Shown here piece after piece: positions 8,692 to 12,062 of a DNA stretch of 64,000 nt. The translations under genes were made by a program, and so were the position numbers. Each line of letters begins with the position of its first letter. Position 1 is the first letter of the stretch. Source of the DNA: an uncultured Pseudomonadales bacterium (GTDB lineage Bacteria; Pseudomonadota; Gammaproteobacteria; Pseudomonadales; Azotimanducaceae); assembly GCA_937921865.1 (NCBI GenBank), contig CAKZWF010000033.1, forward strand, positions 1 to 64,000, read 5' to 3'. The notes beneath the pieces were generated by a model. That model did not search any database and was not told where the DNA came from. It saw nothing but the letters and a program-made list of their open reading frames with translations.

Positions 8692-9720
8692 TCACTGGCT
8701 GCGGTTCGGAAATGCCGTTGGGCGCTCTGGTAGTCCCCGGCGGATGGCCTTGGAAAAGTCGTCGGTATCACCACTGTCCACAGCGATTTCTGTAATGTCA
8801 CTGCGCTGCTTCAGCTGATCCAGACTCATTGAGCTGTTCACCGTGCCAAGTTGGTAGGCCAGTTCCAGCACATAGCCATTAGCCAGCAGTCGCCAGTCGA
8901 GAGGGAATTTTGATCCGACTGCTTTAGCGTGACCCCAGATAGTGGTGGTGCAGTTTTGAGTCAGGGCGTTGTACCAGCGAGGCTCGGCAGCCACCTCGTT
9001 GATGTCACGAATGTAATCTAGGAGCATGGCCCGGTCACCCTGTTTCGGGGTGAAGATCCGATAGAGCTCCACTCGTTCGCCCCGATGATTGGTGCGCAAC
9101 GCGACCACGTCAGTTTCTTCCGCAACCACATAGTAGAGTTCGAACTGGCGAAAGAAGCCTCGCAATGCAGAATACGACTCGCCGACTTCTTTTCGGGTCT
9201 CGATAGAAACCGCCAGGTGGCGGCCGTCGGCAAACTCCCAGCTGGCGATGGTGTGGCCATACGCCTGGGGACCCCAGAATGAGAAAAAGATGTCGAAACC
9301 AACGAGTTCATCGAGGTTATAGGTTGCGGTGATCCAGTTTTCTTCCGCGTTTGCCTCATCATTGCGGTAGCGGAAGCTTCGAACGTTGCTGATAGTGAGC
9401 AGAGAACCTTCCAGAGTAGCTGTGGGTAGCTGCGCGACATTGGACTGCCAGTCTCGCTGATTGCTGGGTGTCAGCGTCAACCACCAGATGATGGTCACGA
9501 TGCACAGCCCCGCTACAGCCGCGACCGATCGCCGGAAAGGTCGAATCAGTGTGATCACAGCGACAACGGCTGACAGCAACCCGCCTGCGAGGAGTCCGGC
9601 AAACAGGCGTGAGTCTGGCCCATCTATCCATAACGCCAGCATCGCCCACAGCACTGCCAGGCTCACCGGTATACAAGCCAGAATTCTCAACAGCAGGCGA
9701 AGCGGTGCTATCCCTGACAC
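8692..9720 (-). CDS. DUF4105 domain membrane protein
   Basis: Inner-membrane protein with three hydrophobic segments in the first 85 residues ('LLLRILACIPVSLAVLWAML', then two more), followed by a soluble domain. That domain matches my memory of DUF4105: 'FWGPQAYGHTIASWEF', 'LYYVVAEETDVVALR', 'YNALTQNCTTTIW'. The conserved N-C-T-T with its upstream histidine suggests a papain/NlpC-like peptidase fold, but no activity is established. Start is a GTG without a clear Shine-Dalgarno sequence. Lies directly upstream of the GST gene. Confidence 0.75.
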   Translation of the reverse strand: MSGIAPLRLLLRILACIPVSLAVLWAMLALWIDGPDSRLFAGLLAGGLLSAVVAVITLIRPFRRSVAAVAGLCIVTIIWWLTLTPSNQRDWQSNVAQLPTATLEGSLLTISNVRSFRYRNDEANAEENWITATYNLDELVGFDIFFSFWGPQAYGHTIASWEFADGRHLAVSIETRKEVGESYSALRGFFRQFELYYVVAEETDVVALRTNHRGERVELYRIFTPKQGDRAMLLDYIRDINEVAAEPRWYNALTQNCTTTIWGHAKAVGSKFPLDWRLLANGYVLELAYQLGTVNSSMSLDQLKQRSDITEIAVDSGDTDDFSKAIRRGLPERPTAFPNRSQ

Positions 9721-9860
9721 GATATGGCTCTGCTGCCAGTAAAAAGAAATTCACGCGTTAGGGTGAGCCTGATCTGGCCGCAATGGCATCGGGCAACTCC
9801 TGTCATGGCTTTAGTCTCCTTGATGGCGACGCACCATGGCGCGTCGCAGACCGACTGGTT

Positions 9861-10499
9861 CTAGCTGGAGCTGTCTGGTGCTGACTTTGCCTGAGCGCCC
9901 GCCCTCTGCAGCAGGCTTTCCAGCGTGTTGTACTCCTGAGCGCCGACAATGCCGAATCCACCCGCGACGAAAGTCGGCACACCGGTGATCCCGAGATCAC
10001 GCGAGCTGCGCCAGTCGACGTCAACTGAAGCGCTGAAGCTGCGCGACTCGAGCACTTCCCGGGCTGCGTCTGCGGACAGTCCAATCGATGCAGCGATGCT
10101 CACCAGTTCATCGATATCGCCGATGTTGATGCCATCAACAAAGTAGGCTCGATACAGCAGATCATGAATTGCTTCACCACCCGGCTGGGTGTCTGCCCAC
10201 TTGCCAAGTTCCTGAGCCAGCCGGCTGTTGTAGGTATGAGTCCGGCGCGCATAAGGCAGCCCTTCGGCGTCCATCAGCGTTTTCATGTTGGTGTACATCG
10301 CTTCCAGATCAATGCCCCGTCCGGCAAACAGATCCTCAAGGCGAGCGCCATCCTCAGGCGTTTCCGGGTGCAGGGGAAAGTGCACCCAGGTGACGTTTAC
10401 ATCGTAGTTGGCTTTGAGTTTTTCAATACGCCCGGTACTGAGATAACACCAGGGTCAGACGTAGTCGGTAAATATCGCGAGGTCGATGGTTTCGCTCAT
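9861..10499 (-). CDS. FrnE/DsbA-family thiol oxidoreductase, candidate selenoprotein (UGA at codon 15)
   Basis: Thioredoxin-fold oxidoreductase of the FrnE/DsbA/HCCA-isomerase group, 212 codons when the in-frame TGA at 10455-10457 is read through. The ATG at 10499 follows a strong 'AGGAGG' at 6-nt spacing and begins 'MSETIDLAIFTDYV-UGA-PWCYL'. Homologues have Cys at that position (CPWC), so the stop replaces exactly the nucleophilic cysteine and would give UPWC. Downstream the frame is open for 197 codons, with family features 'FPLHPETPEDG' and the cis-proline 'GITGVPTFV'. The ORF track splits it into 10455-10706 and 9861-10385. A hairpin 14 nt after the UGA fits a bacterial SECIS. The alternative is a nonsense mutation next to a pseudogene cluster; the intact frame argues against this. 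No selA/selB/selC gene is in the window. Confidence 0.82.
10424..10440 (-). promoter_or_regulatory. Candidate bacterial SECIS hairpin
   Basis: On the minus strand, CAGTAC pairs with GTATTG (6 bp, one G-U) around the 5-nt loop CGGGC. The stem starts 14 nt and the loop 20 nt downstream of the in-frame UGA, with a G in the first two loop positions. This fits the general bacterial SECIS rule of a short hairpin about 16-37 nt after UGA. A competing pairing of CCC-U-GGT with ACC-GGG, starting right after the UGA, is also possible. Confidence 0.6.
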
Positions 10500-10584
10500 G
10501 CTGTCCTCCTGGCGGGCGCTAAAGTATGGAGCATACCGGGCGTGGTCGCCGGTGCAACTGACGTTGTCCGAAAATTGCTCCAAC

Positions 10585-11370
10585 TCACTGGGGCCCGGAG
10601 AGAATCGACTGCAGACGTCGATCGAACAGCGGAGGTTTGATTTCCAACTGCTGCTGATGGCGTTGCACTGCTGCCAACAACTCAGCAACGACTTCGGGAT
10701 GACCATCTGCCACGTTGAATCGTTCGCCGGGATCTTCCAGCAGATGGAACAACGCTGGGGGGTTCATGTTCGATGCGCTCTGGTGGCATTCCATAGGCGC
10801 CAGCCGAAATGAGCCTTAATTTCCAGGGTCCACTGCGATAAGCCTGAAGTTCGCTGCCGCGGTAATAGCTGATCGAGTTTCTTGAGCTCGGTTTCCCCTG
10901 CAACAGGGTCGGGCTGAGATCCAGGCTGTCGGGACCCGCATACCGCCTTCGAACGTCGTGCCTTTGCCGTTCGCCAGCAGACCGGCGCTGCCGCCGTGGT
11001 GGCGCATATACAGCCACGGACCGTTGTCGCTGGTAAAGAGCACCGGTGTGTCTTCAGCCAGGCCTTGTTGCTCAAGGGTGCAGGGGATCTCCCCGACGCT
11101 CCAGTCGAGTTCTTCAATCACCTCGCCATACGCTGGCCAGCCCTGGCACCGGCAAACTGCGCACTGCGGAACAAAGGCGTGTTCGGTATGCTGTAGGGGA
11201 CGTGAAGTAAAAAAGGCGAATCCGCTGCTGTTTCGATGCACTGCTGAGCTTCGCGCGTGTAGCGATGGGTCAGGGTGCGCTGGTCGACCGGCTGTTCGAT
11301 CACTTCATCCGTATAGCCTGCCTCTGATCGGGAACGGCGGATCAGCGGGACGTTCCAGTATTTTATCTCC
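10585..11370 (-). pseudogene. Sulfatase (arylsulfatase family) remnant
   Basis: Recognisable pieces of a type I sulfatase are scattered over three minus-strand frames. They are 'EQPVDQRTLTHRYTREA' (about 11300), 'EVIEELDWSVGEI' and 'FTSDNGPW...GGSAGLLANGKGTTFEGGMRVP' (about 11150-10960), 'SISYYRGSELQAYRSGPWKL' (about 10870-10800) and 'ALFHLLEDPGERFNVADGHPEVV' (about 10750). At least three frameshifts and an internal deletion between 'GGMRVP' and 'SISYYRG' break it. The N-terminal half with the formylglycine C/S-x-P-x-R site is gone, replaced by the 3' part of the neighbouring esterase remnant. Non-functional. Confidence 0.88.
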
Positions 11371-12062
11371 GGCTCGCTCTGCGAGTCTGACTGAGTCGTC
11401 GAGCAGAACCTCGTGGTCGCCTACCTGAACGAGCATCGGAGCCAGCCGCTTAAATCACCGAACAGTGGAGATACACGGGGCTCATCGACCGCCGCGGCAC
11501 CGTGGTACAGGGCAGCCATCGGACTCAGCAGATCTGCGGAGTCCATCGGATCAAGATCCGCACGAGTTTGAGTGCTGTCGCCGCCGCCAGTGAGATCTGT
11601 CCAGGGTGATAACAGCATCACCCCGGCAGGTTGCGGTTTCCCCTGAGATTTGAGAGCCAGCAGACAGTCCAGGGTCAAACCACCACCGGCTGAGTCTCCG
11701 GCAATGACGATGCGTTCCGGCGCGATGTCGTTTGCGAGCAATCGGTCGTGGCTCGCTATGGCATCTTCTAGCGCGGCTGGATAGGGGTGTTCAGGCGCGA
11801 GCCGCTAATCGACGCCGAGTACCGGCGCCCGGCAGACCCTGGCGATCCGCCCCATCAGCTCAGCATGGGTGTTCAATGAGCCGAGCACATAGCCACCGCC
11901 GTGCAGGTACAGCACACCTCTGTCCTGCCGCCCCTCTGGTGCTGCGATGTGGCATAACCCGATGCCATTTGCGGCAAAGTCTTTTCGGTTGATGTCAGAG
12001 GCCACCGGCGTCGCCATATCTTCCATCGACTGGCGCATCGCCGCGACGTCAATCCCCTCACC
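11371..12062 (-). pseudogene. Alpha/beta-hydrolase (HSL family esterase) remnant
   Basis: Fragments of a hormone-sensitive-lipase-type esterase. 'VLYLHGGGYVLGS' holds the oxyanion-hole HGGG motif, and 'IVIAGDSAGGGLTLD' the catalytic-serine motif. In between, the usual 'D-Y-RLAPEHPYPAALEDA' reads with an amber TAG in place of Tyr. A frameshift follows 'SPLFGDLSG', after which 'MLVQVGDHEVLLDDSVRLAER' continues in another frame. The C terminus with the catalytic His is lost at about 11370, where sulfatase sequence begins. The N terminus also appears truncated upstream of 12038. Clearly decayed. Confidence 0.88.

Follow-up and report, generated by a model that had tools for sequence, protein, structure and literature searches.

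A probable selenocysteine-containing FrnE/DsbA-like oxidoreductase with an in-frame UGA and a conserved SECIS-like hairpin

The window, by which we mean the whole 64,000-nucleotide stretch of DNA that was analysed, almost certainly carries a bacterial selenoprotein gene in which an in-frame UGA would be decoded as selenocysteine (Sec), with a FrnE/DsbA-like UPWC oxidoreductase as the predicted product. The original prediction of a Sec-containing UPWC enzyme at this site gains support from a TGA conserved among relatives, from Sec machinery in the same genome and from a constrained hairpin. The family to which the gene belongs has been known since 2005, and its range is extended here.

Gene structure

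The gene lies on the minus strand and its features are listed in Table 1. The frame from 10499 to 9861 has 212 codons, an ATG start, a TAG end and a single internal stop, the TGA at 10457–10455. Re-reading it confirmed that two ORFs in the mechanically compiled list, one of them 9861–10385, are a single frame broken only by this TGA, and that the 197 codons between the TGA (codon 15) and the TAG are open, both of which had been predicted, as had the strong AGGAGG ahead of the ATG. Translation across the TGA gives MSETIDLAIFTDYV-U-PWCYLSTGRIEK..., in which Cys18 is encoded by the sole Cys codon of the whole frame. Pfam PF01323 (DSBA) spans the TGA, matching residues 8–198 at 115.6 bits (cut-off 25.6; E=3e-33), and the whole-genome model search also runs straight through it.

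Table 1. Features of the putative selenoprotein gene, in window coordinates
Feature	Position	Strand	Basis
CDS for 212 aa (U15 included), probable FrnE/DsbA-like oxidoreductase with Sec	9861..10499	minus	Frame read, homologues, Pfam and dN/dS
In-frame UGA, codon 15, very probably read as selenocysteine (U of UPWC)	10455..10457	minus	TGA in 34 homologues, Cys in more distant ones
TGT at codon 18, the resolving Cys in UPWC	10446..10448	minus	Read in frame
Shine-Dalgarno AGGAGG, 5 nt upstream of the start codon (ATG, 10499)	10505..10510	minus	Read in sequence
SECIS-like hairpin, 7-bp stem UCAGUAC/GUAUUGA, loop CGGGC from the 21st nt after the UGA	10423..10441	minus	Published bSECIS criteria (PMC13188914) and conservation
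G173-V174-P175, predicted cis-Pro loop facing the active site (thioredoxin fold)	9975..9983	minus	P175 invariant in alignment; cis geometry inferred from family

Conservation of the in-frame TGA

A search of 58 related genomes recovered the gene in 15, that of the window included, and every copy has one in-frame TGA; the relatives recovered are 46–73% identical. The TGA gene also occurs on two public MAG contigs (L053 and L055). When 201 genomes of the organism's family were sampled, 52 proved to contain a close homologue, and in 51 of these it has an in-frame TGA; about 20 genera are represented. All 34 copies read at the DNA level (33 relatives and the window) have TGA at codon 15, followed in each by CCN TGG TGY TAY CTC. 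At the aligned site, TGC or TGT is found in more distant homologues, such as those of Rhodospirillales, SAR116, Desulfofustis and a part of the Gammaproteobacteria, which bears out the proposal that the UGA sits where the family has CPWC and that homologues would show either Cys or UGA there. Such a Sec/Cys pairing across homologues is the signature of bacterial selenoproteins. Values of dN/dS against relatives are about 0.13–0.38 in most pairs where the ratio was computable (pairs with saturated synonymous sites yield no usable ratio), and the gene evolves under purifying selection.

These data bear on two other accounts of the TGA. Cys homologues exist, the genome is a 103-contig draft and the genes immediately upstream are broken, all of which could suggest that an ordinary Cys-containing (CPWC) FrnE gene was sequenced wrongly or has recently acquired a nonsense mutation. 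Recurrence of the same TGA in dozens of separately assembled relatives, at about 45–73% protein identity, together with low dN/dS over the frame, leaves that account hardly any probability. Close relatives have TGA rather than TGC or TGT at the site, no additional frameshifts or stops occur in frame, and the genome encodes Sec machinery; the opposite of each had been named beforehand as a reason to doubt the prediction. The UGA could alternatively be a real stop: translation might restart downstream (e.g., at GTG 10385) and yield a shortened protein that lacks the active site, or the product might be an inactive leader peptide with a regulatory role. Mechanical ORF callers do list the 9861–10385 ORF, but codons 16–20 (PWCYL), the resolving Cys included, are conserved past the stop and before any such start, the truncated protein would lack the first strand and most of helix 1 of the AlphaFold model, and the gene has a SECIS-like element in a genome with Sec machinery, so that a real stop is very improbable. 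Sequencing error, pseudogene and stop-plus-restart were thus rejected on the conserved TGA, the low dN/dS and the retention of PWC past the stop.

The distribution of the gene is patchy; it was not found in any of four same-genus genomes. One genome (G023) holds, besides the common copy, a second, divergent Sec copy (L154, G023:C30:9775-10449) with 38–42% identity to the window copy. This second copy keeps the hairpin as UCAAUAC GGUCA GUAUUGA, and a TAG counted within it by the search appears to be the frame end.

A constrained hairpin downstream of the UGA

The hairpin extends from nt +14 to +32 after the UGA and has the consensus UCAGUAC-NGNNN-GUAUUGA. The original prediction placed its start and its loop correctly and undercounted its stem, which has 7 bp rather than 6, one of them a G.U in the window. 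Published bSECIS criteria are a loop of 3–9 nt, a stem of 4–16 bp, a loop 16–37 nt from the UGA, a G among the first two loop positions and a free energy of ≤ −7.5 kcal/mol (PMC13188914). The geometry agrees, as predicted for a SECIS-like position, with a 5-nt loop, a 7-bp stem, G at loop position 2 and 20 nt from UGA to loop; the stem is intact in 33/34 copies and the loop G is present in all 34. The 60-nt RNA of the window folds at −8.4 kcal/mol with the conserved stem forced, compared with −10.1 for its free minimum, which is a different hairpin, and the conserved hairpin by itself reaches only −4.9 kcal/mol. Most relatives that were folded favour the conserved hairpin or an extended form of it, unlike the window RNA. 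Folding stability alone is not significant (z −1.4 for the window and −0.7 to 0.2 for three relatives), and an Rfam search gave no match.

The hairpin exceeds chance: when the window peptide is recoded synonymously, the exact stem arises in only 0.14% of cases, and relatives keep both stem and TGA. No compensatory changes were seen, and six of the seven stem pairs are invariant and hence uninformative for covariation, so synonymous-site conservation serves as the evidence instead. Among 18 TGA copies, synonymous differences fall to 15% in codons 20–27, a lower value than in any other 8-codon window of the gene (mean 58%, sd 11%); they amount to 20% in codons 16–26 compared with 61% in codons 27–200. 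The 24 Cys homologues have no dip in codons 16–26 (49% vs 48%). Leu20 is CTC in all 34 copies, while Leu28 takes any of four codons. This synonymous constraint is a strong argument for a SECIS element. The helix-1 residues that follow UPWC mostly take two forms, STGRI or (S/N)TVSI, both of which keep the RNA stem and differ in the loop.

Decoding machinery in the genome

A search for the sel genes, proposed with the original prediction, was successful for selA (C4:5782-7089, 530 bits), selB (C4:3914-5737, 411 bits) and tRNA-Sec (selC; C4:2316-2404, anticodon UCA), which lie side by side within 5 kb on one contig of the organism's own genome, but not for selD. With the family model and a same-genus SelD protein as queries, the draft (89.7% complete, 103 contigs) gave one weak selD match, on contig C63, below the cut-off. 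As selD is found in all four same-genus genomes, each time with its own in-frame TGA, its absence from the draft is taken as an assembly gap. Matches to selA and/or tRNA-Sec occur in 15/15 genomes carrying the TGA gene, an agreement that is weak as a correlation because most genomes of the family have selA or tRNA-Sec anyway. A formate dehydrogenase search of the organism's own genome gave no match above the cut-off.

SelD varies in form among these organisms. A SelD with an in-frame TGA (CG-U motif) lies at L160:1393-2463 on the minus strand, and the SelD matches in G002, G003, G004, G006 and G022 are of this kind too; the TGA-containing form spans the same-genus genomes and two other related genomes, in which SelD itself is a predicted selenoprotein. 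In most of the family's other genera the open frame that contains SelD is longer, about 720–780 codons, has no TGA and is perhaps a fusion.

Near-cognate reading of UGA happens in some bacteria, and codon 15 might on that ground be misread as another residue, Trp or Cys, instead of Sec. However, the site aligns with the catalytic Cys, which is usually replaced by Sec, SelB and tRNA-Sec(UCA) are encoded in the genome, and the nucleotide-level hairpin constraint is confined to TGA copies; misreading is about as implausible as a sequencing error. With Sec insertion, SelB and tRNA-Sec would decode the UGA at codon 15 under the guidance of the mRNA hairpin.

Fold and probable function

The AlphaFold model (pLDDT 93.6) places residue 15 immediately before a helix that starts at residue 16. 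Foldseek ranks 1–5 in the PDB are all FrnE of Deinococcus radiodurans (DR_0659; PDB 5cnw, 5co3, 5xwh), at TM 0.83–0.86 on the query and 31–32% identity over the whole length, and the next PDB match is Streptomyces SCO1869; phmmer also matches FrnE (E=1e-28). The window protein is accordingly a FrnE-subfamily member of the DsbA fold, with FrnE proteins as its nearest solved relatives by full-length sequence and fold. Both proteins are predicted to be cytoplasmic; for the window protein this location is probable because the model chain begins 4 residues ahead of strand 1, too short a stretch for a signal peptide. They differ in the active site (UPWC in place of CPWC, with Sec for the first Cys) and in the C-terminal CxxxxC, which the window protein lacks. 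That motif is thought to recycle D. radiodurans FrnE and occurs in many, but not all, FrnE proteins (PMC8945050), and is therefore not strictly defining for the subfamily; FrnE of D. maricopensis and S. roseofulvus likewise lack it (PMC8945050).

The product would be a 212-aa, probably cytoplasmic thiol-disulfide oxidoreductase of the FrnE subfamily. Its Sec selenolate, at the N-terminus of helix 1, would attack a substrate disulfide or accept an oxidant, after which Cys18 would resolve the selenenylsulfide. Because there is no thiol other than Cys18 (no third or fourth Cys), recycling from outside is needed, and an external reductant such as thioredoxin or glutathione could provide it. We infer substrate and direction, and the enzyme most likely reduces or exchanges disulfides in a Sec-dependent manner during oxidative stress. 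By analogy with the proposal for Deinococcus FrnE, its role would most likely be disulfide reduction or repair under oxidative or metal stress.

Neighbouring genes are uninformative on function: the upstream ones are broken, and relatives do not share the neighbourhood, with the exception of a PhyH-like ORF that has a similar counterpart at a single other locus, though differently spaced. The broken genes directly upstream (10580–11741, minus strand) comprise sulfatase pieces in shifting frames, of which 10816–11241 matches only positions 188–269 of Pfam Sulfatase, and an Abhydrolase_3 protein fragment at 11421–11741 (minus strand). Just downstream, a short open stretch at 9711–9806 (minus strand; MTGVARCHCGQIRLTLTREF...) resembles, by eye only, the truncated N-terminal part of a CxCG-type (GFA-like) protein.

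Origin of the Sec form

A tree of 111 rows groups the Sec copies in a single clade of 20 rows (96/82), which also contains two Cys rows, L054 and L096; because of its long branch, L096 is of unsure placement. This topology suggests a single origin of the Sec form within the sample, with possible Sec-to-Cys reversion. Just outside the Sec clade, a Cys (TGT) homologue from a Caenispirillum MAG (L061:964-1584) has hairpin-like nucleotides, CTCAATACCGGGCGCATCGA, with 17/20 nucleotides of the hairpin region kept and two stem pairs broken; selA was not found in the genome of this MAG. The hairpin remnant looks like a relic, with convergence as the alternative. It is conceivable, though doubtful, that the SECIS hairpin dictates the helix-1 protein sequence and that some Cys homologues are Sec-to-Cys revertants, for which L061 would be the clearest candidate.

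Relation to known selenoproteins

DsbA-like UxxC selenoproteins have been reported repeatedly. A 2005 survey of the Sargasso Sea listed nine sequences of a "DsbA-like protein" (COG2761, UxxC; PMC1088965), the GOS survey recorded the same family as "DsbA 1" (pfam01323, UxxC; PMC2398784), a 2016 survey counted a DsbA-like selenoprotein in 41 sequenced organisms (PMC5029168), and a 2026 review names "DsbA-like protein form 1" (PF01323, UxxC; PMC13188914). The window gene has, like these, the PF01323 domain, Sec for the first Cys of CxxC, a bacterial SECIS-like element right after the UGA and widespread Cys homologues, and no essential difference is seen in a comparison with the published descriptions. 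Membership of the Rcas_1661 family of thioredoxin-like (seleno)lipoproteins (NCBIfam NF041057; entered as DsbG-like in PMC13188914), which has a thioredoxin-like fold and UxxC as the window protein does, was rejected, since the match scores 28.7 bits against a cut-off of 190 and covers the C-terminal half only. The window gene thus joins a selenoprotein family already described in 2005 (PMC1088965), and the selenoprotein that the original prediction called hidden is so for annotation but not for biology. Translation table 11 splits the enzyme in two and loses its active site, here and apparently in dozens of related genomes. The 34-sequence natural alignment, with its two main loop classes, allows SECIS constraint to be measured directly against synonymous change. 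The known range of DsbA-like selenoproteins is widened by about 20 genera, all from a single family of Proteobacteria that apparently belongs to the Gammaproteobacteria.
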